This document shows, one piece after another, positions 228 to 64,000 of a stretch of DNA of 64,000 nucleotides. Below the pieces are notes generated by a model, which had not been told where the DNA came from, did no database searches, and worked only from the letters and a program-made list of their open reading frames with translations. Position numbers and translations under genes: made by a program. The stretch's first letter is position 1. The number at the start of each line of letters is the position of its first letter. This DNA is from Trebouxia sp. TZW2008 (lineage: Eukaryota > Chlorophyta > Trebouxiophyceae > Trebouxiales > Trebouxiaceae), in contig BDIU01000223.1 in assembly GCA_002118135.1 (NCBI GenBank), positions 185,565-249,564 of the forward strand, given 5' to 3'.

Positions 228-320
228 AAAAGCTCGCGCAGGGGCTCAATGAGATTCAAGTCTAGGTCCTTGGGCAGGCCTGCTACATGATGGCGAGACT
301 TGATGGTGTGGCTGTGCTCT
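228..320 (-). repeat. Echo of GMP synthase exon 7 (3' part)
   Basis: Downstream copy of the exon at 425-574. It still reads [19 protein letters not shown] and LIEPLRELF, but the donor GT has become CT. It lies inside the intron after the true exon and cannot splice normally. Confidence 0.85.
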
Positions 321-424
321 TCACTGCTATTGGGTCAGAGCAACACACCACCACAGGGAAAGTGCTGTTCAAACAGCAGACCAGAACAGCAACAGGGGGG
401 GCTCAGAACAAAACAGTGGGTCAC

Positions 425-3400
425 CTTGAACAGCTCTCGCAGGGGCTCAATGAGAGTAAAGTCTAGGTCTTTAGGCAAACCCCCGACGTTGTGGTGGGAC
501 TTGATGGTGTGACTGTGCTTCTGACCGCTGCCAGGTGGCGGACATGACTCAATCACATCTGGATATAGTGTCCCCTGCAAGCACCTATTGCTTGACCACA
601 CAAGCATCATACACTCTTGCTGTGTTGCACACCTCATGTGATAGGGAATGTCTAACATTCATTTGGTCAAGCAAGCAGGGCAGGCAAGCAAGCATAAAGC
701 AAGCAAGCAGGCTGGGAAGAAAGCAGAGGCTGAACTGCCTTGCAGTGAGCAGGCTCACTCGGCTGCAGAGCAGTGCAAAGCAATGCATCTCGGCATGAAG
801 AAATTCAAGCTAGTTCATGATGACAAGCTAGGAAACAGCCCTTGGTATGGTAATCACAACAGGCATTTCTCACCAGCTTTTGGCACTGGAGATGTACACA
901 GCAAGCCAACCCAGATGAACTAATCAACGCCACAAGCAGCCACAATTGCAAAGCACAGGCAGGTGCACATGTGTGATCTTTTGATAGAGGTTGTAGGCGC
1001 TATGAACAGACAGACATGCGATCTGTGAGCCAGACAGCCTTAGCTGTGGGATGATCTGAGCACATCTGGGCATACCTGCACCAGGAATCTGGGTTTGATG
1101 CCGTGCTTGGTCTTCAGGGTAGTGGCAAACTCCCTGAACACGTCTATGAAGCCGCCACCAATGGTCTTGCGCTTCTCTTCAGGGTCCTTCTTGCCCTGTG
1201 GCAAATCAACAGCTGACCGCACTGAGCCCAATTGCAGTGTCGAATACACAAAGAGCAATGGCTGTCCAGCAGACTAAATTGCAAGTGTCATAAGGTTTGT
1301 GTGAAAGGCGTGAGCTTCAGAATGGCATAGCATGCTTGCTGCCTTTGGCTCAAGCGCTTGCTAACAGTTGCTTGCTTCAGTACAGCGCATGACTTGCAAC
1401 AAAAGGAAAAAGCCTGTATCAGTCGAGGCTATTGCAAGCTGCATTGATGCAACCCCTAGCTGTGCCTGACAGTCACATGACCCTGGAAATGAGATGCAAT
1501 ATGACTGGCATCGTACTCCATATTGGGTGCTTACCTTGAGCATACTGAGCATCCGCTTGCTGTCATCTATGCGGGTAACCGGCAAATGCAGTTGCTTCTG
1601 GAAAGTTTCCATCACACGCTCTCCTTCCTAAACAATGTCAAGTGATGACTTTGCCTGGATCAACAGAGATTCACAGCAGGCGGCAGTGGTCATATTCTAT
1701 GTGGCTACTGGTCATCGCAGCCTTGAGAGCTGCATTGCCCTGAGTGACCAGGATCCAATAGGGCACGCGATGACAGTTGAGTGTGTTACACTGAGTTGCA
1801 GGACGAAATGTCAGAGGTTGAGTCACATTTGTCTGCTGCTGGCGTTTGATAGCAAGAGGCAAGACACGCAAATCATAATATAATTGTAAGCCATAACAGC
1901 TAAGCCGTGTGGGAACAACAAAAAATACTGACAGCACTGAGGAGCCCTTGACTGGTTATGACCCTGACTGCAAGCCTGCAGCATGATGCTTACAGTAACA
2001 GGCAAGATATACGCACGTCTCTGCAAAATGTTGCAGCAAGCAACGCTCATGCAGGCTACCAAGCCTCTACCATGGTCAAGTGTGTGCTGCAGCAAGTAGC
2101 TCTCAAGAAGTGTGTTAAAGCTAGAAGTCTTACCTTGTAGCGCAGGAGGCCATTGTCTACAAAGACGCAGTGAAGGCGGTCTCCCAGGACCTTGTGCACC
2201 ATGGTGGCTGCCACAGTGCTGTCCACTCCGCCAGACAGAGCACATATGACATGGTCTTCTGGCCCCACCTATGCAAAACAAGACTAAGCTTTGCTGATGT
2301 GGGATACAAGGATGACACATAGTAAGTGGGTGCAGGTCATGACCTCCAGGACAAAAATGACATGATCCTCTGAGCCCACCTGCACAAATCACACTGTCTG
2401 CTTGAATGATGTGCAACACAGCAGGATACGGTGATGCGTGAGAGAGTGATGGTGTTCAGAAGTCAGTCAATGATTGATAGGTAATGAGCAGGTGAGTCAG
2501 TAGTTGACTGCATGATGGCTGCCACAGTGCTGTCCACCCCGCCAAACAGGGCACCCATGACATGGTATTCTGGACCCACATATGCAGATCTGCAAATCAG
2601 GACTCGGCCTGGGTATCATGCAACACAAGAGGATCTGTTGATCAGTCAGTGGTTGACTGAGTGAGGGAGTGACTGAGCAACCGGGTGGGCGGGTGCTTGC
2701 ATAACCCAGTGGGTGAGTGATTGAGCAAGGAAGCGAGTGAGCAACCTTCAGAAGCTACTTCTGATGCAGATGAGCAGACGCTTGTCACATCATTTAATGG
2801 GGAGCCAGTCAAGATAGAGTAGAGAGGCATGCGTGGCCAAGTGGGCCTTCTTTAAAAGCACAGGCAGTTGTACCCTGGCTTACCTGCCGTCTGAGCTTCT
2901 CCAGCTCCTCCTCCAGGATGTTCTCCAGCTTCCAGTCTGCCTTCAGCTTGGCAATGCCAAACAAAAAGTGCTTGACAGTCTCCATGCCTCGGTCTGTGTG
3001 TTTGACCTCTGGGTGGTATTGCAGGCCATAGTACTGCTTGGCCTGGTTCTCAATGGCCACAATGACACCCTGCAGCATATTGTATTGTCTCTATAAACAC
3101 CATGCATCAGTCTGTGTGCTTGAATGGCAGCTGGCATGGGCTCTGTGGTTATCAGGCTCTCGTTTGTGTGTTTGACCTCCAGGTGGTAGTGTAGATTGGA
3201 GTACTGCTTGGCCTCGTCCCCAATGGCCAGATTGAGACCATGCAGAGATCACTGTTGTGCCTATGGTTAACAAGACACAGGTCTGACCCTTTCCTGGTGT
3301 ATCTGCACACTTTTGGCTGCATCATAAATGATAATGCCCCCCAAGCAAGTTTACTTGCATGCATGTCTTGAACCAGGCTTAGGCTGATGGTACACATGTA

Positions 3401-4195
3401 CATAAAAGCAAGCACCATCAGCTGCTACTGTTAGACAGAGCAGACAGCTGCAGAGTTCATTGCAGATATCGTGAGCCATGATGCAGCGCCCCGCAGGACA
3501 TGAGCATAACATCTGTTGAGGTTAAGGGCAGAGTACAGTAGGACAATGTCTTGTGCAGTGGCAGATTCAGCCATGTAGAGCTTGACCTGCTCACTGGTTG
3601 CAACTGGCTGGAAACCATCTGGCAGCTTGTCGATGCTGTCTCCATGACTCATCCAGACGCTTTCTTTGTGCACTCCATGCTCGCCAGACTCATATGCATA
3701 CAGCTGACTTCCGCCTGAAGCACGTATAACCATGCGGCCATATTCTCCGCCATCTGCTGCTTGATGCACAACTCCTCCAAGGTGCTGAACCATGAGCTGC
3801 ATCCCATAGCAAATGCCAAGTACTGGTATATGCTGGCTTTGGCAATATTCAAAAAAGCCTGCCGGCACTTGGGGAGCGCCTTCGATGTGCACTGAGTTCG
3901 GGCCGCCAGATAGAATGATGGCTCTTGGGTTGGCTTCTTTAATTCGATCCTGCGCGGACAGCAAAAGGTTCTGCTGGCTGTACGAGACAGGGCTTTGATC
4001 AGTCGCACGTCACAAAAGGCGCACCAGAGTCGCGTCGCCTGGCAGCAGCAGAGAGCACACGTTGTTTTCACGAACGCGACGCGCAATTAGCTGTGTGTAC
4101 TGTGAGCCATAGTCGAGGACCAGGCACACAGAGTGAACAGCATGTAGTCCATTGTCTAGCTTAGCCTTTTTGGCTACGTGACCGTTCTCTGTCAT
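425..4195 (-). CDS. guaA: GMP synthase (glutamine-hydrolysing), C-terminus off the left edge
   Basis: Converts XMP to GMP using glutamine and ATP in de novo guanine nucleotide synthesis. Seven exons: 4195-4025, 3949-3587, 3069-2884, 2268-2134, 1627-1535, 1195-1076 and 574-425. All junctions are phase 0 with GT-AG ends. Together they give 406 codons from ATG 4195. The N-terminal class I glutamine amidotransferase has [15 protein letters not shown], the nucleophile motif GICYGMQ and the His-Glu motif YHPEVKHT. The ATP-pyrophosphatase half has the P-loop SGGVDST, then [27 protein letters not shown] and [13 protein letters not shown]. The last exon ends in [10 protein letters not shown] with a GT donor. 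From the family's usual length, roughly 120 further residues (dimerisation domain) lie beyond coordinate 1. An in-frame ATG at 4237 would add 14 residues. Introns carry echo copies of exons 3, 4 and 7. Confidence 0.95.
2338..2582 (-). repeat. Two echoes of GMP synthase exon 4 (5' part)
   Basis: Copies at about 2338-2385 and 2508-2582, upstream of the true exon 2134-2268. The first reads [11 protein letters not shown] after an intact CAG. The second reads [20 protein letters not shown], so the P-loop serine has become phenylalanine and the frame runs into non-homologous sequence. Confidence 0.85.
3105..3250 (-). repeat. Echoes of GMP synthase exon 3 (5' part)
   Basis: A copy of the segment that encodes EVKHTDRG and the preceding residues, at about 3160-3250, plus a shorter fragment at 3105-3130. 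Both lie upstream of the true exon 2884-3069. The longer one keeps the TTTGACCTCCAGGTGGTA stretch of the plus strand with substitutions that break the frame. Confidence 0.75.
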
Positions 4196-22376: not shown

Positions 22377-22379
22377 ATT

Positions 22380-30600: not shown

Positions 30601-33600
30601 GCTGGCGTGATGCTGACAGCTGCAGCATTGTGCCATTGCGCAAGCCCAACAAGATCTGCACAGCATACAGTTGTACAGATCAGAGGTGCTTGTATGTACA
30701 CACACAAATTGCAAACACAGTAGGCTGAAGGGTTTGGGATGTGCAGTGACAGCCAGATTGCTGTTGATATTGCTATCTGAGTCTGCAACCAACATGACTA
30801 CACAAGCAGGGCAGCTTTGTGCCATCTTGCACTGGTGCAGCAAAGCCTGTTGATATGACTATTGGCCAAGCACCTGAACATGGCCAGATCTGGGCTGTGC
30901 AGGCAGAATTTGGACGCTCTCAGGGATGGCCTGATCAGGCAATGCTATCCTTGGGGATGCAGGCACGTCCTGTGGCACTGCGTCAGCCCCTAGCAAACCC
31001 CCCAGAGACTGGGCCTGCCCTCTTAAGGGGGATTGGGGCGCTGAGTGGGGGTCACCCCATGGGGGGTGGAGGGTCTGACTCAACAGGGGGCTGATGGCGA
31101 CTTCAGCAAAGGGCGTGAAGGAGGGGTGCTGCCAACTGCCCCTGCTGAGTTCCCCAGGCTGCAGCATTAGTACTTGTAGGCCTGGCTTGTATGTGCCGGC
31201 AGCAACCAATTTGCAGCCTCTGCCACCTACAGGGCATTCAGCAGTTGTCAGTGGTGATTCATGCAGACTTTCTGCTGTGAGGCCAGCAGCAGCAACAGCG
31301 GCAGCAGCAGCAACTGACTTGCAGCCTCCGCTTGCAATGCGGCGTTAGTCATGACTTTTGAGGAGTTGTGAAGTGCTTGTGCTGTGAGACCAGAAGCAGC
31401 AGCATCAGCAGCAGCAGCAGCAACAACAGCAACACAGCTGCAGCCTTTGCCACCTACACGGCATCATGCATGCTTTGAGGCAGAGCGTTAAACATGCTTG
31501 TGTCATGAAATGAGAAGCATTCTTATCATCATCAGCAGCAGCAGCAGCAGCAGCGACATGACTGCTTGAAAGCCATGAAATGTGGGGGAAGCAATACACA
31601 CACAATTTATCATGTGAAGGATGCTGGCACACCTTGAGGGAAGGGAAGGAGGTGTATGCAGGAGACTTCATCTTGGAGGGAAATGTCAGCCATGTGCTGC
31701 AGGCACCATTTCCTGCGGCTTCGTTTGCGCTTGCCTGGGGCTTGTGCCGCAGCCCCTGCTGACCAGGGCTGCTCCATACTGCCCTCATCAGTCAGCACAG
31801 CTTGCACTGCTGTCAAGCCCTGTACATCCGTGAAAAGCCTGTTATGACTGTAATGGTGAACGCAGCAGTATTTGCAACTGCCAGTACATGTGAGTGCATG
31901 TTCAGCAGCCCTTGCTCACCAAAGACTGTTCTGCACTGCCCTCGTCAGTGAACACGGCTTGTATTGCTGTCAGACCCCGCAATTCATAGATAGACTATCA
32001 TGCATGCAATGCATGCAACTGTAAAGGTGTCACTGTAACAGCTTGACAGCTGATGTTGCTGACTGACCATATCTGTTGCAACATGAAAAGCAGGAGTTGC
32101 AGTCTGCTACACAGTCTTTGCCACGTGGCCATTGTGATGCATGATTGGTGGCTGAGCTGTAGCAGACCAAGAGGTGGCCCTTGAGTAGCAGCAAGGGCAT
32201 TGAGCCATATGCAGCAGCTTAAGGTGGGTTCAGGAGGCGATGACAATGCCATCAACAGCAGTACCAGAAACATGACTCAGATTGAGCCTGTGCACCATAT
32301 CTTGAGATGGGTACATGAGGCAGCAATGAGCCAGTCAGCAGCACCATCAATAATGTGACTGTTTGGTTTGAAGGTCATATGCCTTACCTTGAGATGCGTG
32401 CAAAAGGCGACAACAATGCCATCAGCAGCAGCACCAACACTATGACTGTTCAAATGAGATTGAACCTGTGGGTCGTACCTTGAGGTGGGTACAGGATGCA
32501 ACAACAATGCCGTCAGCAGCAGCAGCTGTGCTGATGCTGGCACCTCCCGGCGGGGCCCATACATCTTCGCCGCCCCTCAAGCCCTACAAGGCATCACACC
32601 CTCAGCTGCATTAGGTCTTTCACATGGTGTCATCTGCTTCTTCATCTTATGCATGCCTCTTCATCAGCAGGCACATGACAACAGTACCTCACATGTGATG
32701 TCCTTGCAGAAGTCTCATGCCCCACCTGAAATGCCCTGGGCCCTGCTGACCCCTCAGGAACCCCACTGCTGCCAGGGGTGGGTATTGGGGGGGTCCAGCC
32801 GCCTGTATATGCTTCGTCATATGCTGACCGTCCACGATCCTCTGGACTAGAGATTTCCAAGTCCTCTAAGGTCAGGTGCTCACCCAAGCGTGCCCTAGAC
32901 TTGTCTCTGCTTGGGCTAGTTGATAGCTCCCCTGCATGTCAGCATTCACACACTCATTACGAAGAAAGACAAGAAAACAAATAATGATGATCTGCTGGGG
33001 TCTGGCTTGATCCCTGCTTGGTCTGCAAGATACCCGCAGTATCTTGATACCTTCCCGACAAAGAAGCAGTCAGAGACAAGCAAAGGGAGAACAGTCCACA
33101 AGAGCGCCTGGCCTAGGCAGTCATTACACGTTGTTTGGATGTAGGTTTTGTGGCAGCGTAGGTCACTGAGCATATAAATGCGCCGCCAAGAAACCAGAGC
33201 AAAGTGCTGGGTAAAGGCCATTCTGTCTACCTCAGATTCAGAGCAGGATCTGAGGTAGAGGAATCAGACTTCACATCAGGCTCTGCCTGGAGTCCTAGGT
33301 GAGGCATTCATGAGCCCAATTCAACAGGCCACAAAGGGACTGTATGCAGTTTAGGCCAAGACAAGGCAGGCAGCCGTCACACACGAGTTACTAGAACTGC
33401 TGTGGTGGCATGATCCAGTGGGTTCATTAGTGCCTCACCAAAAACTCGGCCCAAAGCCCGAGGTAGATCAGCCAGACTTTACCTCAGTCTTTAGCCTGGA
33501 TGGCGCAGGCCCAGTGAGCCCAGTCAAAAGGGGCCATGCCAAAGGTCAACATTGGCTGCAGCTTTTGTAGCAGCAAGGGTCATCTAAAATGTAAATGTAA

Positions 33601-36600
33601 ATGCCCCACCAAAGCTGCAGGTGTCTGCCAAAGGTAGGGGACGCAGACTTGACCCCAGGCTGTGGCCTGAAGCCTTGATGGGGTGATTCATGAGCCCAAT
33701 TGTAAGGGGCCTTGCCAAAGCTTGATATTGGCTTCTTGCTACACAGTGGCATGGGTCTTTTGGATTGTGAACGTCCCAACAAGGCCTCACATGACAATCA
33801 AAGGTAGATGACACAGGCTTCACCTCAGGCTGAAGCCTTGATGGGGCGCCTCATGAGCTCAGATGAAAGTTGCCTTGCCAGCAGTCAATACTGGCCCCAA
33901 CTCTTGTGGCGGCGAGGGTCATCAAGCTTGTGAATGTCTCAGCAAGGCTCTAGACAAGAGCCGAAGGTAGAGATTGCAAATTTTGCAAATTTTCACCTCA
34001 GGCTGTGTCCTGAAGCCTTGGCAGGATGGTTCATGAGCTCAACCGCAAGGGGCCGTGCCAAGGATGAACACTGGCCGCAAATCTTGCAGCAGCGAGGGTC
34101 AGCAGGCTTGAAATTCCCCCATCAACACCTCAGGCGTCACCCAAAGCTAAAGGACGCAGAGTTCACCTCAGGCTGGAGCCTGATGCCTTGATGGGGTGGT
34201 TCATGAGTTCATGTCAAAGGGGCCTTGCCAGAGGTCAGCACTGGCCGCAGCTTTTTGTTGCAGCGAGGGTTACTAAGCCTGTGAATGTTCCAGCAAGGCT
34301 CAAGACATCAGCCAAAGGTAGATGACGCAAAGCAAGCTCAGGATTTGGCCTCAAGCCTTGATACGGTGGTTCATGAGTCCAATTGACAGGGCCCCTGCCA
34401 AGGGGCAATAGTGGCTGCAGCTTTTCATCATCAGGGTCATAAAGCTTGAGGGTGACCCACCAAGGCCTTGGATATCAAAAGACACAGAATGTGCCCCCGG
34501 TTGTAGCCTGAAGGCTTGATGATATTTCATGCACTGGATAAAAAGGGGGCTTGTTGAAGGTCATCGTTGGCCACAATCTTTGTGGTAGCAACAGTTGCAA
34601 GCGTGTCTGGTGCCCCACCAAAGCCACAGATATCAGCTCAAGGTAGAGGATGCAGACTTGGCCCCAGGCTGTAGCCTGAAGCCTTGATGGGGTTGTTCAT
34701 GAGCCCGATTGAAGGGGCCTTGCCGACAGGCATCATTGGCTTCAATCCTTGTGGAGGACAGGGTGCCAGGCTTGCCAATGCCCCACCCACGACCCGGGCC
34801 CAAACTGTAAGGTACAGGAGCCAGAGGCTACCTTACAGCTTGACCTAAGTCCTAGGTGGGGCACTTAAACAAGCTCAGTTGGAAGAGACCTGGCCAATAC
34901 CCCTGTGCCATCCTGAGCACTAGATGACTGCCATTCTCAGTAGGCAGCATGGCCAGCAGCGCTTGTGGTCTACGATTATTGGCAAGTTTGCCAGTCAGGC
35001 TCGATGAGCCTGGTGGGTGCATACAGGAGGAGTGCTTGTGGGCCTGCCAGGCATGTGTCAAAGCCCAAGGCAAGCGAGTCAGGCAATTCCAGTCTCGTGC
35101 ATCTATGCCTCAATCAACGTTACTACTACTGTTATGCACGTGGATATCACGTCATACTCTTGCCGTTAATTCAGCAAGATGGTGACCGTCATCACTACCT
35201 TTGCTAATCAGGCCATGCAGAGGCATCCGGACGAAGTGCTTTGCCAACGACCAGAACTGAGCACACTGTTGTTACAATCGTCAACCTGATGCTGGGTTTG
35301 TTAACCACACAACATTTTGTCTAACATGTTTGTGCAGAAGCGTACCTAAGTCAGGCGCCAGGGCAGCATCCATGCAGATTGCAGATGAGGTGCATGCGCT
35401 TGTGCATGATCTGATCACAATCATCAATGTCATGCTGGACAGTTTCAGTAGCAAAATCATTCTTGCCACTAGGAGTTCTGCAGAGGCATACCTAGGTCAG
35501 GTGCCAGGGCAGCGTCCATGCAGATGAGGTGCATGCGCTTGTGCATGACCTGCACCAGCAGCCGCTCCGCCAGGCAGGCACACATCAATGTGCGCTCGTT
35601 GGCAACCAGGTCCAGAGTGTCCGTCACATCCCTCAAAGTTGCTCCTGCACCCACAGAGTCACAATTAAAAGGGGAGTGTGACTCCATAGAGTCAGGACTG
35701 AAAGGAGGTTCTGCCCAAAGCACAAGGTCCAGCATGTTAGTCACATCCCTCAAGGTTGCCAGTGCAATCCAAAAGTCGGGATGAACTGGGGGTTCTGACC
35801 AAAGGGTGGGAACCAGCAGGAACATATCAGCGTGCGCTCACTGGCCACCAGGTCCAGGGTGTCAGTCACATTTCTCAAAGTCGCTCCTGCACCCAGGATG
35901 TTGCAAATGTGAGCGTGACAGAGAGTGCTTGGGGTAAGACAAGCTGTAAAGAGGAAAGACTTGAGGTTGGCCAAAGTTTGTGCAGTGATATTCTTGGGTT
36001 GGTGACTGAGGCATGGCACGTACGCTAATTGGTTAATGATCGCGGCATACACATTATTTGCCTGGCTTGTGGCTGAAACTTGGTGACTGAGGCAGGAACA
36101 ATCCATGGCTTGCCCACCAGATGCAAAGGACGGCCCCAGCAAGCTGTGAATCTGCATCTGGCAAGTGAGGAAAGCATCACATGTCCAGCATAGTAGTGCA
36201 TTCAACACCATACATCTGCAATATTGGAGCATGGTTGGCAAACCAGGTGAGCTAGTGTGATGAGGTGCTGATGAATCAGCATCTGAGCAATGATTCAACA
36301 GGAAGCTCACCTGTGGCCATGGCTCGGGTGCTGGAGGCAAAAGACAGCACCAACAGGCTGTGGAAATCAGCATCTGGCCAAGGGGGAAGGCTCCACATGC
36401 CCAGGAGACCGGGGTAGTCTGCTCCACTCTCATACACCACCTCTACAGTCTGATCAGCAGAGATTACTCTGATGCTACCGTTGCTAGCACCACCACATGC
36501 TGCATATACCTGCACATGGCAGCAGCAGCATTGATATCTTCAGAACTGTTACTGTTCATTGATTTCTTGGGAGGCTGAGGTAGTCTGCCCTGCTCTCACA

Positions 36601-37096: not shown

Positions 37097-40000
37097 GGTT
37101 TCATTGGTATTCACGTACATACTGTTGTGAGTTTTGTCATGCTTATAATCTGATGCTTTGCAGATAAAGCTGCAGACAATCACCTGGTTTTGAGGCAGTT
37201 TCTGCAGGTTTGCAACCACAAAGCTCCACACAGGCGCTGCATTGTGCAGCACAGAGCTGACTCCTGGCTGCAGGCTGGCCATCCCCTTCTGGGTCTTTTT
37301 GGGGTGGTGGGGGGTTGGCACCCTGGCTATGCAGCCATCTCCTGTCTCACTGCCAAGCAACACATGGCTGTTTGGCAGGCTCAGCATTGTTGTTGGACTT
37401 GAGGGAGGGCTGTATCCAGTGTCCTGCACATTCAAGACACAGGTCACAGGCAATGACTGAAAGATGTAATTGCCTGTGTGCTTGTCAGTGTATGTCCATG
37501 ATTATAAAATCATTACAAAAAGTCTTGTGTGCAGTATTTGGAACTCTGGCTATGCAGCCGTCTCCTGTCTCACTGCCAAGCAAGATATGGCTGTTTGAAG
37601 GCTCAGCATGGTGGTTGGACTTGAGGGAGGGCTGTACTCAGAGTCCTGCACATCCAAGATGAACGGTCATCAGTCATCAAACTTGTTGCCATCAAGCCCT
37701 TCTGCGGCACATATTGCAAATGCATCAGCAACCTGACCGTGCACCCACTGCCAGACATGACAGGGACATGACATGACATGACATGACATGACATGTGATT
37801 AAACAGTTAGCTGCAGGTGTACTGTCCCTTGTGCTGATCGCTCAGTTTCGATGATCGTCTTCACTGTGAGGCTGAGGAGGCTGTCATGAAAGCCCTCAGA
37901 GACGTCAAAGCCCAGCAGCAGCTCTTGGTTCAGGAGTGGCGTGCAGACACATGACATACATGGCATTGGCGTGATATGACATTGAAACAGTCACCGGAAG
38001 GTGTACTGTCCATTGTGCTGGTCGCTCAGTTTCTGTAGTCTTCTTCACAGTGAGGCTAAACAGGCTGTGGTGAAAGCCCTCAGAAACGTCAAATTACCTG
38101 ATGAAGCTTTGGGTCATGGATATGACATACATGACACAGACATCACGCAGCATTGAAATAATCACCTGAAGTTGTACTGTCCATTGTGCTGATGGCTCAG
38201 TTCCTGCAGTTTGCTTCACAGTGAGGCTGAGAAGGCTGTGGTGAAAGCCCTCAGACACATCAAAGCCCAGCAGCAGCTCTTGCTCAAGATTTGGCGCCTC
38301 AGATGGCGGAAAATCACTGGAAAAGGCGGGAGTCAGATGTTCCCGCCAGCACCAGCTGGTTAGTAATCTTGGCGCTGTTGGACCGACCAACACATCTGCA
38401 CCAATGCTTTTGCACTTCAACAGATCTAAGCATATTTGACAATGGGAAAAAGAGTGGTTTGATGTGCACGAGATGCTCTGCAGTATATGTACTCTGTACT
38501 GATAGCCAACATAATGCTTATATGCATGCCGGACAACTTATCTGCTCATGCTATAATGTTGCAGGACGCTGTATGGCTCTGTGCACATCAAACCAATCTT
38601 GTTCCATTTGGGAATGTCCCTGTGAAGTGCTGCAAGTGCATGAGCAGCTAAGCATAGCATGACGGTGCACAGTACTCACCCTCAGTGGTCGTTTGCTCTG
38701 CTGCAGCTGTGGAATCCACAGCATTACTGCAAATCATGACAGAGGGGCTGTCTGACATCGCACAAGAGGGGCTGTTGCGGGTCTCATGGGAGGGGCTGTT
38801 GTGGGTCACGTGGGAGGGGCTGTTGAAGGGCCCAGCAGGCCACCTGCCCCCCCACACCACCCCCAGCGAAGCAGGGGTGGATTGGCGAGTCTCATTGACA
38901 AAGCTGTGGCATTGCACTGCAGCATAAGCACTCATCATAGGTAGGCCTGACACCACCAATGGTCCAGCTGCTGTCAGCAACGCTGTGGCATGGCACTGCA
39001 GCATACTGACGGCACCTTTGACCTGTCAAAAGGTGTCTGACCGACCTTGAGAGCATTTGCTTGCAAGTGTGTGACGCTATAAAGCTCAAATCATTCATCA
39101 ACATGCTCAACAGCCTTGGAATAACCGCGGCCTGAGCAGCAGCTGAATAAATCAACTGTTCACGCCTTGCTGGCTCTTGAAAATGCCACCGGTAAGGTTA
39201 GGCAGTGACAGCAATGATGCAAGGCAGACATGACAGGAATAAAACCAGCGTGCAAGCATTGCAGGCGGAACATTGCAGTGAGGACAGGAAAAGATCATGC
39301 CACACAAGCAAGCAATGCAGATGCAAGCCAGCCAGGATCAAGGGAGCATACAGCGAGTAGTGTGGGAACTAGCGCTGGAGGCCTGATCAAGCGGTGCATT
39401 AACAATGTCCTGTAAATCTAGCAGCACCAGGCCACTCTCGTACATCAGCACCAAGCCTGCATTTGCATCACATCCTCAATGACAGGTCGCAGTGCATGGT
39501 TTCAGTGCCATGCTGCCTCTGAGGTGTTCAAGCAAGCCAGCAGATGCAGAAGCCAGACACATCAACATTGAGCTGAGCAATTCACAGCAACACAGCAACA
39601 GTATGGACTTCAGCAGCCTGTTGTGCTCTGCAGCGACAATGATGCAGGACTTCTGCAACAGAATCCTGTCGGGCAGGAGTGCCATGACTGTGCCATGAGT
39701 GCCAGCTGGGCAAAGCACAATGCTACCAACCAAGAAGCTGAAAACATCATCAGCAACAGCAGGATACAGACTTGTCATGCACAAAACAGACAATTCAAAT
39801 TAACAGGGCAAAAGTACAGAGCAACAGTACAAACAAGTTTTGATGCCAACCTGAGTGACAGCCAGGCACAGTGCACAGGTCCAGCACAATGCTGCCCACC
39901 AAGAAGCTGAGAGCATCAGCAAATGCAAGCGTTGGACTCAGCATCAATGAAACAAGCTACTCACATCAGTAGGGCACAAGCACTGATCAGCAGCACAAAC

Positions 40001-42860
40001 TGTAGTAGGATACTGACCTGAGTGGCAGCCAGGCACAGTGCACAGATCCAGCACAATGCTACCGACCAAGAAGCTGAACGTATCAGCGAGCTCGTGCAGC
40101 TGCAGTCGGTGTCTGACAACCAAGCTTGACATGTCTGGAGCCCATGACAGCAGATCCAGTGTGAAGCCTGACTCTGGAGCCACATAGTACAGCACTGCTA
40201 TTGCTGAGCTCTCAGGCGACTGACCAGCAAGCTCTGCAGGCAGACAGGAATGGCCTCAGCAGCAAGGCTAATTGCAGCTGCAGGCGGTGTCTCACAACCA
40301 AAGTTGAGATGCCTGGAGCCCACGACAGCAGATCCAGTGTAAAGCCTGACTCTGAAGCCACATAGTACAGCACTGCCATGCCCAAGTTCGCAGGCAGCAG
40401 ACCTGGAAACTCTGCACACCAACATGAGGGACTGAGCATTGTTTGGGCAGGATAGCACAATGCTGCTGTGGCTCAGCTCTTAGGCTGTTGACCAGCAACC
40501 TCTGCAGACAGATATGAGACACTCAGCATTGAAGCCACAGGCAGCAGATCGAATGTGGAGCCTGAATCTGGGGCCACATAGTACAGCACCGCCATGCCCA
40601 AACTCACAGGCAACCCACCCAGAACCTCTGCACACAAACATGTGGGACTGAGCATTGATTCAGCAATATAGCGCAGTCCTGCTGTGGCTAAGCTCTTGGG
40701 CTGTTGACCAGCAACCTCTGCAGACAGATACGAGGCACTCAGCATCAAAGTCACATGCAGCAAATCCAGTTGAAGCCAGACTCTGGGGCCACATTGTGCA
40801 GCACTGCTGTGGCCAAGCGCTTAGGCAACTGACCACCAAGTGCTGCAGACAGATATGACACACTCGGCATTGAAGCCACACGCAGCAGATCTAGTGTGAA
40901 GCCGGAATCTGGGGCCACATTGTGCAGCACTGCTGCGGCTGAACTGTCAGGTGACTGAGCCGCAAGCTCTGCAGACAGATCCAGTGAGCTTAGAACCCAA
41001 GCCAGTATTACTACTAGCAGCATAAACACGCTATGCAGCAGTGCTACAGCAGTCCTGTCAGAACGCTAGTCAGCAAGCTCTGTGGCCATTGCATCACAGC
41101 TTGCCAAACAGCGATTGTCCCCATGCAATGTTTGGCGCAGCAGCTGAGCCAGTGTTGAGATCACAACACAATGAGCAGCTATGTGTCAGCATGTCAAAGT
41201 CAAACGCATCCACATGCCCAGGCACTCCAGTGTTGCAAGACAAGAAATGAATGCATGACATGTCAGAAATGGCAGCAGCCTGGGTAAACAGCAACAAAGC
41301 TCTGTATCTCATGTTCTGATGTTGACTGCCATCATGCCAGCGCACACAGCTATCTTAGAACAACACAACAGACATCAACAGCAATCATGCTAGCCATGCA
41401 CAGGCCAAAGGCAACTGCTCACCAACGAAGCAGATGTTGCGAATGAGCCCTGCAGGAGCCAGGTCCATGGTCCATGGGCTAACAGGCTGCTGCTGCAGAT
41501 ACTGCTGATGCAGCTGCTGCTGTTGCTGCTGCTCGTTTATCAGTTGTGCAATGCTATCCGCATTTGTTGTCATCCACGTTACATCCAGCCTTGCAGACTG
41601 TGTCTGTGCCCTCAGCCACTCCTCATCAGATGCAAAGGCTCTGCTGGGCGAAGGAGGGTCAGGCATGTCTTGCATGGGGGGTTCACGGTCCTGGGGCCCC
41701 TGGGGGGGTGGGGTTGGGGCCGGGGGTGGCGGTGGGTCACGGGGCGGGGGTTGGGTGGCTATCATTTCCTGCAGCTGCTGTGCGGCTAGCCAGGTGCGCA
41801 TGGGAACAAGACTGGGTAGAGTTGCTGTGATTGGATGGCTGAGGGCTGTGACTGGGTCAATGGAGGCTGTAAGCGGGTCACTTGGTGCTGTAATTGGAGC
41901 GCCGAGGGCTGAAGCTGTGGGGCTGGAGGTGACAGGAAGAAGACTGACCCAGTTGAAGCCAGCTATGACGATTGATTGCCCTTGTGGGTTCACATGCAGA
42001 GAAAGGGGCGGCAGCAAGCTTGAGGCCCCTGTCATCATGGCAATGGACAGGTGTTGTGAAGGCTGTCAGAAAACAAGACTGCAGGTGCATGCGCCGAGAC
42101 AGGACGTCAGCAAGCTTGAGTTGCCTGTGGTATAGCAATGCTTAGATGCTCCAACAACAACAAAGATCGTCTTCATTAAGTGTTTTGGCAAACAAAGTTA
42201 CGTCTGTCAAACAAGGTCAAATATGGCACGGCGCCAAGAGCAGATGAGAGGTAATTGTTACCTGGCAGCAGGAGTGGAGTTTGATGTAAAGGCACAAACC
42301 TGCAGCAAACAGCTGGCGTAATGGCTTTTGTCTGTGGCTAGACATGGACGTTGCTACAAATGTGTGCTTGTAAGCGGATGCATGCATGCTGAAGACAGAT
42401 TAGTCAACACACCTGTACAGAGTTGTGTCAAAGTGTATGACGGAAAGATTGCTGGAGGTTGTCAGCAGCACAAGCTTGTCCAAAGCCTGCGATGTGGCGC
42501 AAAGCATTAGGTTCCAGTTTTGGAGCGAGGTGAGCTGCCAGCACTGGACCCTGGCTTTTGTAGTGGTCAATTGCTAAGGTGTCTTCTCACCTTCTCAGTA
42601 CCCTCAACATGCAAAACTTGCATGTCGAGGATATTGGCGTGGACCGGCTGTTGGAACTGCGTTTTCAAGCTGCCGTCGTCGCTTACGGACGTCAGAGCTA
42701 GCGACGTCCCCGTGGCCAGCACTATGTCGCTTGTGCTGGCATGCCGGAAGTGCCCCGTCACAGATCTGTGTATGCCGTCACCGGGGATCAACGTCTGAGC
42801 AATCATGTGCATGTTGTTCTGCGCCACCCGCACCGGCGGACTTGTCTCGGGAACGGCCAT
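24689..42860 (-). CDS. CPSF-A / DDB1 / SF3b130 superfamily protein (plant At3g11960-like), 25 exons
   Basis: Exons: 42860-42591, 42486-42413, 42299-42262, 42028-41423, 40233-40018, 38916-38680, 38395-38166, 37423-37184, 36509-36311, 35644-35492, 35009-34890, 32931-32726, 32583-32479, 31819-31633, 31217-30874, 30655-30273, 30170-30141 (least sure), 29985-29780, 29261-29106, 28880-28782, 28676-28149, 27598-27362, 26198-25692, 25370-25200 and 24888-24689. The total is 1,914 codons with phase kept throughout. Landmarks are TSDIVLATGTSLAL, GFNWVSLLPV, AAPVWSFVVANL, NGSIRVISADQTVEVVYESG, SLQDEVSCIHLLPFP, VAAGTYKPGLQVLML, ILLGLRNGTML, FPLPSGESITSI, VLVIVGTVNTQKPNNW, VAAVGQRLVAFEK, VASNETDSVMAYQ, VAAVDQQGRILFLAPE and LDGDMLAQFLQLP. 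The family is a triple beta-propeller scaffold in RNA processing, splicing or CUL4 ligases; the role of this branch is unknown. It is longer than usual because of Pro/Gln-rich (exon 4) and acidic (exon 21) inserts. Introns hold dense echo arrays. Confidence 0.85.
27724..28085 (-). repeat. Three echoes of CPSF-A exon 22 (5' part)
   Basis: Copies at about 27724-27780, 27835-27935 and 27975-28085 of the segment encoding PVHAVTLLPGCAAKAQQAQQ. Period is about 150-165 bp. All lie upstream of the true exon 27362-27598, and each starts after an AG. Confidence 0.85.
28975..29105 (-). repeat. Two echoes of CPSF-A exon 20 (5' part)
   Basis: Copies of the TLARFPLPSGE segment at about 28975-29035 and 29065-29105, upstream of the true exon 28782-28880. 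One directly abuts the donor of exon 19, so the reading continues past the GT in a misleading open frame. Confidence 0.75.
29404..29725 (-). repeat. Echoes of CPSF-A exon 18 (3' part)
   Basis: Copies at about 29404-29463, 29525-29560 and 29585-29725 of the segment encoding PTKPLLLVACQGTD and MSPVTG. The best copy is offset about 190 bp from exon 29780-29985. All are downstream. Confidence 0.8.
31319..31480 (-). repeat. Echoes at the acceptor side of CPSF-A exon 15
   Basis: The plus-strand segment TTGCAGCCTCTGCCACCTAC at 31211 recurs near 31319 and 31439, about 110-120 bp apart, separated by CAG-rich filler. This duplicates the exon start and polypyrimidine/acceptor region. Confidence 0.65.
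31895..31985 (-). repeat. Echo of CPSF-A exon 14 (5' part)
   Basis: Reads RGLTAIQAVFTDEGSAEQS against GLTAVQAVLTDEGSMEQP of the exon 31633-31819. It lies upstream and loses homology after about 20 residues. Confidence 0.85.
32225..32450 (-). repeat. Three echoes of CPSF-A exon 13 (3' part)
   Basis: The segment encoding AAADGIVVASCTHLK plus donor is repeated at about 32390-32450, 32295-32355 and 32225-32275, decaying with distance from the true exon 32479-32583. All are downstream. Confidence 0.85.
33260..34870. repeat. Satellite-like array of about 160-180 bp units in intron 11 of the CPSF-A gene
   Basis: At least nine units, recognised by the plus-strand anchor GCCTTGATGGGGTGGTTCATG and a following GGGGCCTTGCCAAAGG. 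Anchors sit near 33311, 33510, 33690, 33850, 34033, 34203, 34372, 34530 and 34699. The unit nearest the exon aligns with the donor region of exon 11 (34890), so the array appears to be a much-amplified downstream echo. Confidence 0.85.
35325..35900 (-). repeat. Echoes on both sides of CPSF-A exon 10
   Basis: Upstream copies at about 35690-35770 and 35820-35900 repeat the 5' part (TLRDVTDTLDLV). A downstream copy at 35325-35425 repeats the 3' part (ICMDAALAPDLG). The true exon is 35492-35644. Confidence 0.85.
36585..36985 (-). repeat. Two echoes of CPSF-A exon 9 (5' part)
   Basis: Copies at about 36585-36685 and 36780-36985 of the start of exon 36311-36509 (VYAACGGASNGSIRVISADQ). They read ACGAASNGNIRVISADQTAG and ARGSASNGSM with a stop. 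Confidence 0.85.
37535..37655 (-). repeat. Echo of CPSF-A exon 8 (5' part)
   Basis: Copy of the exon 37184-37423 start (YSPPSSPTTMLSL, GSETGDGCIAR), offset by about 230 bp and upstream of the exon. Confidence 0.85.
37765..37794. repeat. Pentanucleotide microsatellite (ACATG)n
   Basis: About six perfect copies of ACATG in the intron between exons 7 and 8 of the CPSF-A-like gene. Confidence 0.95.
37800..38095 (-). repeat. Two echoes of CPSF-A exon 7 (3' part)
   Basis: Copies at about 37800-37940 and 37985-38095 of the segment encoding LLLGFDVSEGFHHSLLSLTV, downstream of the true exon 38166-38395. Each keeps a recognisable version of the donor side. Confidence 0.85.
39705..39935 (-). repeat. 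Echoes of CPSF-A exon 5 (3' part)
   Basis: Copies at about 39705-39770 and 39845-39935 of the segment encoding FSFLVGSIVLDLCTVPG. They lie downstream of the true exon 40018-40233. Confidence 0.85.
40255..40985 (-). repeat. About six echoes of CPSF-A exon 5 (5' part)
   Basis: Tandem units of roughly 110-140 bp. Each begins at a TCTGCAG-type acceptor and encodes variants of AELAGQSPESSAIAVLYYVA and PESGFTLDLL. All are upstream of the true exon 40018-40233. Several retain the full acceptor but lack the 3' half. Confidence 0.88.
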
Positions 42861-58213: not shown

Positions 58214-61200
58214 TCAAAAGCGCTGGTACTGTCCCCGGGGCTGGTTGTGATGCCTGTCAAGGTTTCTGCCCCCTCGGCCTCTCCTGCCTCCCCTTCCTCT
58301 ACCTCTCCCCCTGCCACCATCTCCCCTGCCAGATCCAGGCTCTGCAGACCAGGTAAGCTCCAACATAAGTAATGCTGACACTAAGGACATAATGGCTTAC
58401 TGTGTAATTAACATTCCACAATGCTGGGCATCAGCAGTCCAAGTCTGGAAGGGCTATCTTGCAATATCCTGCTGTGATATCAGCAACTCTGGCACATCAG
58501 TGCCCATTGCTGCATGGTCAATGATGAAGAGCACAAGTGGCGTCACCTCCATGCGAACGATCAAGCGTGAGATATGTAGTCTCATCAAAACAGGCATTGA
58601 TACTCTGGTCAGAAACTGATCAACAAGCAGAGCAGTCTATAACTCCGTGGGGCCTGACGAGCTGAGAGTTGGGTATGGGGCCAGGGTAGTCCTGCCCCTC
58701 AGTGACATGTTCACAACAAGATAGTCAGAGTCAGATGGTCAATCATCAGTCGCTGGTGACATAAACAAAGTCACATGAATGATGATCAGGAGCGCAAGGA
58801 GTATCACCTCCGTGAGGGCGGACAAGCTAAGAGTTTGGAGCGGAGTCCTGCCCAATGATCACATGGCCAGAGTCACATGGCCAATGATCAGCTGCTGATC
58901 ACACAAACAAGTGCCACGGTTAATGATGAACAGTACAAGGGGTATCACCTCCATGAGGGCGGACAAGCTGGGAGTTAGGGATAGGGGCGGGGTAGTCCTG
59001 CCCTATGGTCACCCCAAACTGCTGCATTTCGCTCTGAGACATCAGGCAGGGCTCATGAATCCTCTTTGATGAGACATTCTTGAGCTCTGGCACCCAGGTC
59101 TTGATATACTTGCCTTCTTCATCATAGTCCTGTAACAAAGACATGCTTGACTGAAGTGCTAGCCCTCCATATTTACATTCTGGACTCCAAGCATCTGCCT
59201 TCAAAATGATGCAACCCTTCTTCAGCTCTGAAACTCAGGTCTTGAGACACATCCTCATCATAACCCTGCATCAAACACACTATTGAACATTATCATCATT
59301 ACCCTGCATCAAACACGCTCTTGTACCAACTGCTGCATCTCACTATGAGACATCAGCCATCAGCCAGTGCGCAAACACCCGCTGTGATGACAACATTACA
59401 TTATTGAGCTCTGGCACACAGGTCTTGATGTACTTGCCCTTCCTTGTCATAGTCCTATATCACAACATCATTATACAGCTGCTGCCCCTTATCATGGAGT
59501 ACAAGAATTCGCATTCACGCAATCATCACACACATCATAAGCATTGGCATCCAGCGTGATGACATAGATCACACTGGCATTCTGACAAATTCAATGCCCA
59601 ATGCACACACACACACACACACACCGGACGCATGGCAGACCCAACTGCAGTATGTGCTGGTGCAGATGTTTGAGGTGCTCAGAAGTGTCTGAGCGTGCTT
59701 GCATCTTGAATCGCTTGATCACGTTGACACATGTGATGCATCTGATTTGGTCATTGATCCATGCTGTGAAAAGTGGCCCAACATCTTGTGTGCATTGAAC
59801 TCTTTTGAAACTCTGAAGTGCTCGCTGCAAATGTCAAGGTGCGTTGATGCAGATATGTCAGGCATGAAACAGTAGTGAGTCATGTGCACACATTGGACTG
59901 CTTAGTGATGTCACAAGAATGCATGCAAGTGCCAGTGTGAACTGATTCAGGTATTTGATATGCCCCAGCTGTACTTGTACAGCATGCATGTGCACACCTT
60001 TGACTGCTTAGTGATGTTGAAGTGGTTGATGCGACCTCCAGTGAGGCCAGCAGCAGAGACCCAGTTGCCCCAGTTGCTGCATACATCATAGTCCTGCAGA
60101 ATGGTCTCAAACCAGTCCGCTCCCTTCCTCCAGTCCACACCCATGTCTAGGACCAAGTAGCTTGCCACATTCTGGCGACCCCTGTTACTCATGAAGCCTG
60201 CAGACACAACAAAATTTATCGTTAGCGCCATCACAAAGCAAGTAACACCCAAGGCTTACCACGTCCTGTTGGACATGAAACTTGCAGACACAACAGCATT
60301 TGTTGTTGGCATTATCATGGACCGAGCAACCCCGTTGCTGCACGCATCATAGTCCTTCAGGATTGCCTCAAACCAATCTGCTCCCTTCCTCCAGTCCACA
60401 CCCATGTCTAGGACCAAGCAGCTGGCAACATTCTGACGACCCCTGGACATGAAACCTGCAGACACAACAGCTTGTCATAAATTCTTGTACAACAGCTTGT
60501 GTTATTGACAGCGTGCAAGCACTTGAATAGCTTGCCATGGTTGCTGGACATGAAGCCTGCAGACACAGTAGTATCTATTGCGCGGCTTGACTGATGATGG
60601 GGCAGCGCTGACAGCTCGAATAGCACAATACAGTCTGGGCCCAAACTTCATTCTCCACCTAAAGCTAGATCAAGCAGGTTGTCGCATTCTGATTGGCCCC
60701 TCTGTGGCTGATACAGCCTGCAGACACATCAGCAATGTAACTGGCAACATCAACAGGGAAGACTTGACAGTCCTTACAATGCTCCTGCTCCCTGTTTTGA
60801 GACAGCGTCTCAAACAGAGCGCATGATCACAGAATCCTTTCTGCTGGGTCAAGTCAGAACCCCAGAATCAAGAAGCATTGTGGCCAAGGTGATCCGAGCA
60901 CAATGCACTCCGACTCTACGACTTCACCACAGGATGGGCCCTCAAAGCAGTGCACCCTGTCTCTTGGCCTTCTCTACAGGCATGATAGCTCACGCCTGGA
61001 GAGAAAAGTCAAGAGACAGAATGCTCTGCAGTGGGTTCATACCCGTAGACATTCAGATACAGCAAGCTTTGCAGGCGGAATTGCTTATCAGGGTGCAGTT
61101 CAGCGGTATCAGGCCTGGCAACAGTGCACCCTGACTGTTGGCCTTCCCATCAGGCATGATAGCTTCACGCCTGCCCTGATGGCAAGAGAAAAAGAATGCT

Positions 61201-63678
61201 CTGGAGTGGGTTCACACCTGTGATGAACATTCAGACACAGCAAGCTTTGCGGTTGGTAGTGCTTGTCATGAATTCTCCAAGTAGATTTCAGTGGGATCAG
61301 GCCTGTTGAAAAATTGGAGAGACAGAGTGCAGTGCGAAGGGAACATGCCTGTGGTGACCAAATCACAGAGGGCCTTGCAATAATTGGACCCTGCAATGGC
61401 ATCATGCGTATGGGAAATGCTCAGAAACAGAGGGTGTTGTGAAAGCAGCATGGCCTGTGCGTGGCGATGGGGTCTAGTCTGCAAGAAGGAGGCAAACTCA
61501 ACATTGTGTTGCAGTTGCATTGCATAGAGGAATGGCCTGAGAAAGCCTGGCGAGAAGGGACTTGAGCTGCACACCATAAGCTCCTCTGCTAGTGCGTATG
61601 ATCTGATTCAATATTGCTTGTTGTCACTGTGGCCTGACCTGCCTGCTTGAGCTCACGCATGTTTGCATCGACCAAAGGCAAGCCAGTCTGCCTGCACTTG
61701 TGTCTTGCAGACAGCACTTGTCTCTTGCAGACAGCACTCAAAAAATCCTGTTTTACGCAAGAACAACACATAATTTAAAAATAATACAGAATCCGTCTTT
61801 GTACCTGTCTGCTTGAGCTCACGCATGTTGGCATTGCCAATGGCGGACCAGTCTGACCATCTATGATTGATGCCTAACACACAATCGGACACCAATAACG
61901 GAAGAAGTGAAGGATTAGTACCTGTCTGTTTGAGCTCACGCATGTTGGCATCCACCAGAGGCAAGCCAGTCTGCCCATCCCTGCATCTGTCTCTTGCAGA
62001 AATACTCAAGGATGCCTGTTTTACGCAAGAACAACACATAAACGCAAAGGCAAAAGAATTTAGAGAGTGTGTGTTTGTACCTGTCTGCTTGAGCTCACGC
62101 ATGTTGGCGTCGCCAATGGCGGACCAGTCTGACCATCTATGATTGATGCCTGACACACAACCAGACACAAATAACGGAAGAAGTGAAGGATTGATACCTG
62201 TCTGTTTGAGCTCACGCATGTTGGCATCCACCAAAGGCAGACCAGTCTGCCCATCCCTGCATCTGTCTCTTGCAGACAGCACTCAAGGATACCTGTTTTA
62301 AGCAAGAACAACACATAAACCATGACTGACACACAACCAAACACCAATAACGGAAGAAGTGAAGGATTGATACCTGTCTGTTTGAGCTCACGCATGTTGG
62401 CATCTACCAAAGGCAGACCAGTCTGGCCGTCCTTCCACCTGTTGAAGGCTTCGTCGTTGGGGTCCTCATTCCACCTCACTTTCTTTCCACTAGTGCCGTA
62501 CTCAGAAAAGATTGCATTGCCGTGCTTTTGAGTGAAGAACCTGCACATACCCAGAAAAGATTGCACTGCCGTGCTTTTGAGCAAGGAACCTGCACATGAA
62601 CCTGCACATGGAATTAGGTCTTTCAGAAATCTCTAAAAACCAGTGCTGCATTCAGAAAAGATTATGTTGCTGTGCTTTTGTGTAAAGAGATTGCACATGA
62701 AAGCAGGTCTTTCAATTGAGTGCAGTATTTAGAGACCAGAAGTGGGAGGTACAACAGCAGGCCGCTTCTTGATCAGGACTCCGCATGACAACAGCATGAA
62801 CATACATCTGCTATGTAGCCTCTCAGCAGTAAGTCGCACGCAAGCCGCAAAAGGTATATTACAAGCCCTGACTGTCAGCAAAACAGGAACGCAACGTTGC
62901 GCAGCAAATGCACAGGTTGACACAAGACTTGCGAAGGTGCATTTTGACAGGAAGTGCTGATGTGCGCAATGAAGCCTTGAGCTCTGAGTGGCCAATGCAG
63001 GCCATTAGTAATGCACAAACAGAGGGGCGTGGTGCTATACTGACAAAGCTAGAAAACCACTGAAAAAGCGACATATCCACAACAGGGCTTGATCAATGCT
63101 GAACCTATCTCGCAGCACATGGGGTCCAGAGAATGAAGCAATCATCCTAGCTGAAGTAGTCCCTCCATGGCAGCTCAAAGCAAACCCAGTAACTGAACTC
63201 ATGAACTTTCCTCACACTGACTAAACATTCCCGTACCTGAAATAGTCTCTCCATAGCAGCTTGAAGCAACCCCAGTAAATGAACTCGTGCACTTTCCTCT
63301 CACTCATTCAACATGCCCTTACCTGATATAATCTGTCCACAGCAGCACAAAGCAGACCCATTTAAACAAAAAATGATCCTTTCCTCTCCCTCAGCAAACA
63401 TGAAAGTACCTGAAGTAGTCTCGCCACAGTAATTCAAAGCAAACCCAGTAAGTGGACTTGTTAGCTTTCCTCTCGCTCTCGTACTTCTTGATCTCATGGT
63501 ATATGGTTCTGGCTGAGATGTTGCCATGGGCCAACCAGGGACTGAATTTGGTGCTGTAGTCACCTCCTAGCATGCCGTTCCTGGTTTGGAAGTAAGTTGC
63601 TATCAGGTCTGAGTCCCACAGATAGTACTTCAGCCTTGCCAAAGCCTCTGTTTCACCTCCTGTGAAACGATGCACAGC
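58214..63678 (-). CDS. Cryptochrome DASH, C-terminal half (N-terminus off the right edge)
   Basis: Flavoprotein of the photolyase/cryptochrome family; DASH members repair or bind single-stranded CPD DNA and are often in plastids or mitochondria. Five exons are visible: 63678-63410, 62540-62374, 60197-59998, 59129-58949 and 58341-58214. They give 314 aa, with phase kept at all junctions. Hallmarks are [119 protein letters not shown] and [20 protein letters not shown]. These cover the FAD-binding domain. The tail is a short RGG-rich segment ([19 protein letters not shown]) ending QYQRF, a feature that suggests nucleic-acid contact. The photolyase-like N-terminal domain would lie beyond 64000. 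Both flanks of almost every exon hold echo copies. Confidence 0.94.
58640..58865 (-). repeat. Two echoes of CRY-DASH exon 4 (of the visible set), 3' part
   Basis: Copies at about 58640-58700 and 58795-58865 of the donor-side segment of exon 58949-59129 (plus-strand GAGGGCGGACAAGCTNNGAGTT), downstream of the exon. Confidence 0.75.
59215..59462 (-). repeat. Echoes of CRY-DASH exon 4 (5' part)
   Basis: Fragments at about 59215-59275 and 59405-59462 of the acceptor and [16 protein letters not shown] segment, frameshifted, upstream of exon 58949-59129. Confidence 0.75.
59604..59625. repeat. (CA)n microsatellite
   Basis: About eleven CA units in a CRY-DASH intron. Confidence 0.95.
60255..60590 (-). 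repeat. Echoes of CRY-DASH exon 3 (5' part)
   Basis: A long copy (about 60275-60475) encodes [31 protein letters not shown] with a one-residue loss, plus shorter GFMS fragments near 60480-60590. All lie upstream of the true exon 59998-60197. Confidence 0.85.
60880..61320. repeat. Tandem repeat of about 190 bp, two to three copies, origin unknown
   Basis: Plus-strand stretches beginning near 60945 (GTGCACCCTGTCTCTTGGCC) and 61123 (GTGCACCCTGACTGTTGGCC) are clear copies. A third decayed one follows near 61290. No matching exon was found nearby. Confidence 0.7.
61630..62285 (-). repeat. Higher-order echo array of CRY-DASH exon 2 (3' part)
   Basis: Five copies of the exon end. Type A (near 61637, 61922, 62203) encodes [15 protein letters not shown](A/T)G. 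Type B (near 61806, 62085) encodes DWSAIG(D/N)[11 protein letters not shown] and B alternate, so the larger period is about 280 bp. The true exon is 62374-62540. Confidence 0.88.
62546..62700 (-). repeat. Two echoes of CRY-DASH exon 2 (5' part)
   Basis: Copies at about 62546-62600 and 62645-62700 of the acceptor plus [13 protein letters not shown] segment, upstream of the true exon start at 62540. Confidence 0.8.
63140..63400 (-). repeat. Three echoes of CRY-DASH exon 1 of the visible set (3' part)
   Basis: Copies at about 63145-63215, 63235-63305 and 63320-63395 of the donor-side segment encoding [15 protein letters not shown], spaced 85-95 bp, downstream of exon 63410-63678. Confidence 0.85.
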
Positions 63679-63714
63679 CTGCAATGCACCAGATCAATGA
63701 ATATGCTGACGCAA

Positions 63715-64000
63715 CATGGTGCTGTGGTCACCTCCATGCATGTCATGTCTGGTTCGGAAGTAAATGACTATCAGACCTGTGCCCACAGACAGTACTTGAG
63801 CCTTGCCAAAGCCTCTATTCTCCTCCTAAGGAGTTGGTGCACAGCCTGTAATGCGGTTTGCATTCACAAGGCATTGCGTTGAGGGCTTGTTGATGCAACA
63901 GTGAGCTTGAGTTCCCATGCAGCATGCCGTTTCTGGTTCGGAAGTAAGTGGCTGTCAGGTCTGTGTCCCACAGGTAGTTTTTGAGCCTTGCCCAAACCTC
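63715..64000 (-). repeat. Echoes of CRY-DASH exon 63410-63678 (5' part)
   Basis: Copies at about 63715-63850 and 63915-64000 of the segment encoding [19 protein letters not shown], upstream of the exon. The last runs off the window, so the possibility that it is the true exon start cannot be fully excluded. Confidence 0.8.

Follow-up and report, generated by a model that had tools for sequence, protein, structure and literature searches.

A 64-kb stretch of the genome of the green alga Trebouxia sp. TZW2008 (C215:185565-249564; hereafter the window), whose right end is also the end of its contig, carries on its minus strand exons of a GMP synthase (GMPS) gene and of a CRY-DASH gene, the introns of which contain partial and diverged copies, termed echoes here, of the edges of the exons that they adjoin. 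A preliminary description of the window, made from its letters alone, had noticed such copies and held that those upstream of an exon repeat its 5' part and those downstream its 3' part, as repeated tandem duplication across splice junctions would leave. The source assembly comprises 68.5 Mb in 527 contigs (GC content about 50% from base counts), and the sample considered here consists of the window and 22 other loci (272 kb), or 281 kb with the addition of L025, the DNA just outside the window, which is given negative window coordinates and carries GMPS exons H and I. The sampled loci are contigs chosen by number and form a non-random set.

The GMPS exons were placed by tblastn with homologues, and their splice sites were read from the sequence. 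The resulting model of 553 residues is co-linear, at 93% identity, with the 552-residue protein of a 1,815-base contig that contains no echo; a contig so short with a frame of 552 codons is most simply taken as a spliced transcript (complementary DNA) of a close relative. The 3' end of the first GMPS exon is uncertain by about two residues, and this exon was excluded from all counts. The copies that the preliminary description had reported beside exons C, D, and G (its exons 3, 4, and 7) are present. Exon C (2884..3069, minus strand, as are all GMPS and CRY-DASH features below) has an upstream echo of its 5' part (bases 1-78) at 3162..3239, with 79.5% identity and an offset of 170, and a short second upstream match at 3100..3123. 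The 5' part of exon D (2134..2268; bases 1-69) recurs upstream at 2511..2579 with 88% identity and an offset of 311, and the own-flank search recovered a second upstream echo at 2347..2379. Exon G (425..574), which is preceded by TTGCAG, followed by GTGACC, and co-linear with protein P0121, has a downstream echo of its 3' part (exon bases 46-150) at 224..328, with 80% identity and an offset of 201. Exon I is followed by four downstream copies at constant 140-bp steps, three of which carry donor-side intron. Exons H and I (window coordinates -635 and -1329) are associated with two GC-AG introns that have CAG/GCAAG donors, and the four echoes of exon I show the same GC donor or an altered form of it.

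The CRY-DASH exons were placed by alignment to the PDB chains 1np7 and 2j4d together with splice sites, and the composite is supported by the algal protein P0241 (100% coverage, 71% identity). Exon 1 of the model (63410..63678) has upstream echoes of its 5' part at 63708-63845 and 63921-64000 and three downstream echoes of its 3' part, spaced by about 86 bp, at 63323-63392, 63237-63305, and 63151-63218. Exon 2 (62374..62540) is flanked on both sides, as had been reported, with upstream echoes of its 5' part at 62548-62589 and 62639-62688 and five downstream echoes of its 3' part at 62198-62266, 62081-62137, 61922-61990, 61805-61861, and 61639-61699; donor-side intron homology is kept in four of these five, and the downstream region consists partly of a 276-bp two-copy unit with a 93% identical ungapped core. 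Exon 3 (59998..60197) has one upstream echo (bases 14-140) at 60320..60445, with 87% identity, an offset of 261, and intron homology past the acceptor, and exon 4 (58949..59129) has upstream echoes of its 5' part at 59207-59261 and 59328-59454 and downstream echoes of its 3' part at 58808-58862 and 58643-58697. The gene seems to be split between contigs and to continue on C481, and contigs of the assembly seem to break off inside arrays of this kind: the contig ends at C215:249564 (window 64000) and C481:49600 (L038) both lie inside the exon 1 echo array, where the copies are 85% identical. A second genomic copy free of echoes was looked for and none was found; the search met a further exon 1 copy, the one that ends C481.

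Polarity of the copies and their splice junctions

Each of the 13 exons defined by homology (GMPS B-J and CRY-DASH 1-4) was compared on both strands with its own flanks, as far as the next exon or at most 1.5 kb per side. Eight of the 13 bear echoes (GMPS C, D, G, and I and CRY-DASH 1-4), and none was found by this search at the other five (GMPS B, E, F, H, and J). The 26 matches, 22 of them in the two window genes and four from GMPS exon I in L025, are all on the same strand as their exon, and all 11 upstream matches fall in the exon's 5' half and all 15 downstream matches in its 3' half. As a control for chance, the same exons gave six matches in 2,707 exon x kb of the 22 other loci. The observation was repeated blind on other contigs with 12 exons encoding AAA domains, the best 12 by E-value of 25 listed Pfam AAA matches, each with 1-kb flanks: all 17 matches conform (10 upstream in the 5' part, seven downstream in the 3' part), with echoes at five of the 12 exons and none of the matched part at the remaining seven. 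The same-strand, same-side pattern thus holds for 43 of 43 DNA matches from the two genes and the AAA exons. Identity between exon and copy ranges from about 68 to 93% across the own-flank and AAA matches, and duplication introduced during assembly is unlikely given this divergence.

Protein-level matches agree. Four Pfam lists (194 matches) contain eight same-strand pairs less than 2 kb apart that overlap by at least 30 model positions, and seven of these fit the polarity, with offsets of 155, 166, 174, 191, 245, 316, and 346. The seven comprise five HSP70 pairs, including the upstream copies on C150 (offsets 174 and 346), one AAA pair on C328 that had already been counted in the DNA test, and one chaperonin pair on C144 that is ambiguous, in that overlapping ends of neighboring exons would look alike. 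The eighth pair matches the two C150 copies to each other and has no polarity.

The polar rule of the preliminary description stands as an observation and not as a separate rule: polarity is the unavoidable geometry of tandem exon-edge duplication, because a spare copy of an exon start with its preceding DNA can lie only upstream and a spare copy of an exon end only downstream. Its use lies in distinguishing tandem duplication from local insertion at scattered points. The process shows no clear preference for exon edges, and the counts suggest such targeting weakly at most: arrays touch exon edges in four of four GMPS cases (rotation mean 2.78, P 0.26) and six of 11 CRY-DASH cases (mean 3.45, P 0.03), counts that slower divergence of exon-containing pairs would inflate. 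The share of the unit taken up by exon, in a hand-picked and detection-limited list of 11 copies with offsets of at most 210, does not differ from uniform (Kolmogorov-Smirnov p=0.23), as random placement predicts.

Whether the copies extend across the junction into intron was assessed for 24 of the 26 matches, leaving out the short one of GMPS exon C (3100-3123) and the one of CRY-DASH exon 1 that the window end truncates. A first comparison, in which the 40 bp of intron next to the true splice site was aligned with that next to its copy, gave z>=2.5 against shuffles in 18 of 24 cases, an inflated figure because all splice sites share features. In the final test, a local alignment over at most 120 bp of intervening intron had to score above all unrelated flanks and above 95% of shuffles; it was passed by 12 of the 24 copies, nine of 15 on the downstream (donor) side and three of nine on the upstream (acceptor) side, the latter belonging to CRY-DASH exons 2, 3, and 4. 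Half of the copies, most of them donor-side, thus show a duplication that spans the junction, and the proposal that copies carry junction and intron together holds for most donor-side copies and for a minority of acceptor-side ones. The splice sites within the echoes have lost AG or GT in several cases and kept them in others.

Local arrays and unit length

Exon echoes belong to a wider population of local tandem repeats. Comparison of the window with itself yielded 78 matches, of which 72 are on the same strand (70 of them less than 2 kb apart) and six inverted (four of them single palindromes), and many of the same-strand offsets lie at 156-177 bp. Across the 272 kb, matches less than 2 kb apart number 201 on the same strand and 27 inverted, as against 0 and 4 in shuffled sequence, with a 30% overlap rule applied to the offset histogram. 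An ungapped scan of the 281 kb at all offsets from 10 to 1500, from which arrays with a dust score >3 and those overlapping a better one were removed, found 177 non-redundant arrays and none in shuffled sequence. Chance and low complexity are ruled out as sources of the arrays by these shuffles (0 same-strand matches, 0 arrays). Same-strand repeats less than 1.5 kb apart make up 23% of the window, 985 of 4,913 bp (20%) of GMPS intron DNA, and 2,720 of 3,913 bp (70%) of CRY-DASH intron DNA, all of which are lower bounds because of decay. Arrays are present also in stretches without a known exon.

Offsets are thinly distributed between 10 and about 220 bp, only eight of the 177 arrays reach 400 bp or more, and a peak stands at 140-179 bp, with 50 arrays against 53 in the flanking 120 bp (p=2.7e-7). 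The peak persists without the window and L025 (33 against 39, p=1e-4, from 14 of 22 loci) and in the narrower 150-179 bin of the same loci (p=0.002); the 140-179 bin was picked after the window and pooled histograms had been viewed, so that this window-free test is not fully blind. Among the 50 peak arrays, which are drawn from 15 loci, there are eight similar pairs, seven of which lie within a single locus; the sole between-locus pair was not recovered on further search, and no satellite family is shared by the peak arrays across the 15 loci. The mode is near the nucleosome repeat length in general, from which this alga's own repeat length may differ.

Another array of the preliminary description, the surroundings of what it called CPSF-A exon 5, is real (39714..40985, minus strand, periods of about 126-216 bp); the exon identity was not confirmed, a PDB search of the translation giving 0 matches, and Pfam places RSE1/DDB1/CPSF1 propeller pieces elsewhere in the region around it. 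A large diverged array at 33431..34897 (no strand assigned; offset about 171 bp and multiples) lies in the RSE1/DDB1/CPSF1-like gene region, and another diverged array occupies 37315..38296 (no strand assigned; offset about 223 bp). A 14/28-bp minisatellite at 20983-21139 falls, as judged by eye, in an intron of an HGPRT-like phosphoribosyltransferase gene.

Dispersed repeats also occur. Palindromic elements resembling miniature inverted-repeat transposable elements lie at 5202-5431, 16294-16444, 21424-21566, and 33167-33318, the first of which has a dispersed relative at 51468-51575, and the earlier statement that no transposons are seen was accordingly too strong. In the intron that precedes GMPS exon I, 108 bp (L025, -1143 to -1036) are 94% identical to L006 5490-5597 on contig C8. 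Some intron DNA is therefore dispersed repeat.

Origin of the copies

The echoes are probably fossils of a recurrent local tandem duplication of short segments that enlarges introns, with units concentrated at 140-179 bp; the duplication step may itself be set by chromatin. Under this model, a duplicated segment would cover an exon edge; the copy still joined to the exon body would stay in frame and be spliced as the edge, and the outer copy would become intron and decay, so that the intron is longer by one unit and the protein unchanged. The innermost acceptor and donor, which bound the shortest exon, must then be used, because an outer site would add intron sequence, and this choice would fit exon definition. 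Splicing would ignore the outer copies, and the duplications would be fixed neutrally. The duplication itself could arise when a displaced lagging-strand flap is re-ligated or when paired nicks in neighboring linkers are repaired. Okazaki fragments are sized by nucleosomes, loss of FEN1 causes duplications, and the unit length may reflect nucleosomes or a lagging-strand cause. Recent work on flap processing likewise touches on tandem duplications. A more far-reaching version, in which a chromatin-sized engine that re-copies one nucleosome or Okazaki length in tandem is a main source of intron growth in the lineage, introns are its fossil record, and innermost-site exon definition keeps it harmless, is put forward tentatively, at something over one chance in three. 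The observation of the preliminary description is confirmed and its interpretation partly supported. Repeated tandem duplication that keeps the body-joined copy and leaves the outer one in the intron is borne out, also on other contigs, and the own-flank, AAA, Pfam-pair, and junction tests favor its view that the process acts mainly as intron growth.

Several observations weigh against this account. Measured against unrelated exon flanks in the same genes, intron similarity exceeded the 5% level in nine of 15 downstream copies and in 0 of nine upstream ones, and six of nine acceptor-side copies failed the final intron-homology test, two of which had at most 29 bp to compare. Most acceptor-side similarity ends near the exon start, the exon part itself being 76-88% identical, and local alignment found no intron homology past the acceptor beside the GMPS C and D copies. 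The copies at GMPS 2511-2579 and 3162-3239 and at L023 3507-3612 are 80-89% identical to an exon start with little or no intron similarity before it; the L023 copy, of an exon that appears AP2-like by eye, matches at 89% over 105 bases, starts a few bases from the acceptor, and shows nothing clear beyond. Such copies are not easily given by simple tandem duplication and neutral decay. Quicker turnover may account for the acceptor-side loss, because in an intron pair both copies are free to drift whereas in an exon pair one is constrained, and intron pairs therefore diverge faster. Spacers between 54 higher-identity pairs, a measure confounded by decay and indels, are at most 10 bp in six, 10-50 bp in 25, and more than 50 bp in 23, and the account has to suppose that deletions followed, that introns turn over fast, or that the copying was less simple. 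Many offsets lie away from the peak (49, 87, 201, 276, 311). No pair in the 281 kb exceeds 97% identity at offsets of 100-220, where 13 lie at 90-95% and two at 95-97%; the process has slowed down, or else recent copies were collapsed in assembly, and the ends of both C215 and C481 inside the CRY-DASH exon 1 array favor collapse.

The same difficulties lend some weight to a process in which local template switching or patch repair inserts spaced copies near their source, not as head-to-tail duplications: spacers between aligned copies are common, six of nine acceptor-side and six of 15 donor-side copies lack intron homology past the junction, and the L023 copy begins near its acceptor. Such a process should place copies on both sides and in both orientations, yet every one of the 43 DNA matches is on the same strand and on the side that tandem duplication requires, and the array at GMPS exon I has a constant period, which makes it unlikely. 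A stronger challenge concerns the unit length alone. The same tandem duplication may have produced a peak unrelated to chromatin, arising incidentally from unequal exchange, from the way arrays survive, or from their detection; all offsets from 10 to 220 bp do occur, the peak bins were first noticed in the window, and overlapping and low-complexity arrays had been removed before counting. Against this, an ungapped scan should be equally sensitive to all offsets above about 60, yet 16 arrays fall in 170-179 and four in 180-189, few are of 400 bp or more, and the peak recurs in loci besides the window and L025, which leaves a chromatin-free length conceivable, at something over one chance in three.

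Selection for the copies as alternative exons or decoy splice sites might be suspected from the open frames and donors that some retain (GCAAGT at GMPS exon I, GT at CRY-DASH exon 2). It is highly improbable, however, in view of the AG or GT lost from several echo sites, the partial nature of the copies, their absence from the contig of the closest relative among the matches listed (93% identical protein), and the arrays where no exon is known. Least credible of all is a filling of the introns by introner-like mobile elements or a dispersed repeat family, even though introners are found in many eukaryotes (PMC9860276) and the window does hold palindromic repeats and L025 a GMPS intron stretch shared with L006. 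The echoes derive from the adjacent exon, and a shared repeat family was ruled out as their source by the scarcity of matches at other loci and the lack of a common family in the peak arrays.

Relation to known systems

How introns lengthen in the absence of transposons has seldom been documented, and most intron DNA cannot be traced to a source sequence. In these genes some of it can, namely to the introns' own exon edges and their neighbors. A unit of nucleosome scale, if true, would link genome architecture to a mechanism of mutation, duplication on the lagging strand or at linker nicks. Gene prediction can also be misled by the copies, which resemble real exons in homology searches.

The finding is a variant of the known idea of tandem duplication, the scale and length signature of which we did not find described elsewhere. 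No description of genome-wide intron growth by nucleosome-length duplication was recognized among the papers listed by a literature search from which most subscription journals were beyond reach. In the accessible main text of two Trebouxia papers (PMC12712428, PMC11523091) the word "tandem" is not used, and the accessible part of a study of Asterochloris (PMC6652019), which gives an average of nine introns per gene, contains none of "tandem," "introner," and "intron length."

Introners occur in algae too. The echoes resemble introners, as far as these are set out in the available part of PMC9860276, in reflecting a process that adds intron sequence to many genes, and differ from them in lacking a shared element family, their source being the adjacent exon edge. 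With nucleosome-length satellite DNA, as portrayed in the accessible portion of PMC8122249, the arrays share tandem units of nucleosomal length; unlike those satellites, they are low-copy, locus-specific, situated in and around genes, and unrelated between loci.

Closer in kind are the models of intron gain by tandem duplication, of which cases are known from Drosophila (PMC2891723, in the part available). The AGGT exon-duplication model (Rogers 1989; Hellsten 2011), as described in the accessible text of PMC4974935, likewise involves tandem duplication within a gene whose product is unchanged as one copy is spliced out. It derives both splice sites from duplicated exonic AGGT, whereas in half of the present copies (12 of 24) a junction that already existed was copied along with flanking intron, and the number of introns can stay the same. 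In the potato case (Ma, Lan & Niu 2016; PMC4974935), again as far as the available text describes it, a tandem duplication crosses an intron-exon boundary, and, as here, part of the exon in the upstream copy is turned into intron and the splicing signals are inherited. That case is a single event that created a new intron, whereas the Trebouxia genes contain many copies each, on both sides of their exons, which apparently enlarge introns and have a preferred unit length of 140-179 bp.

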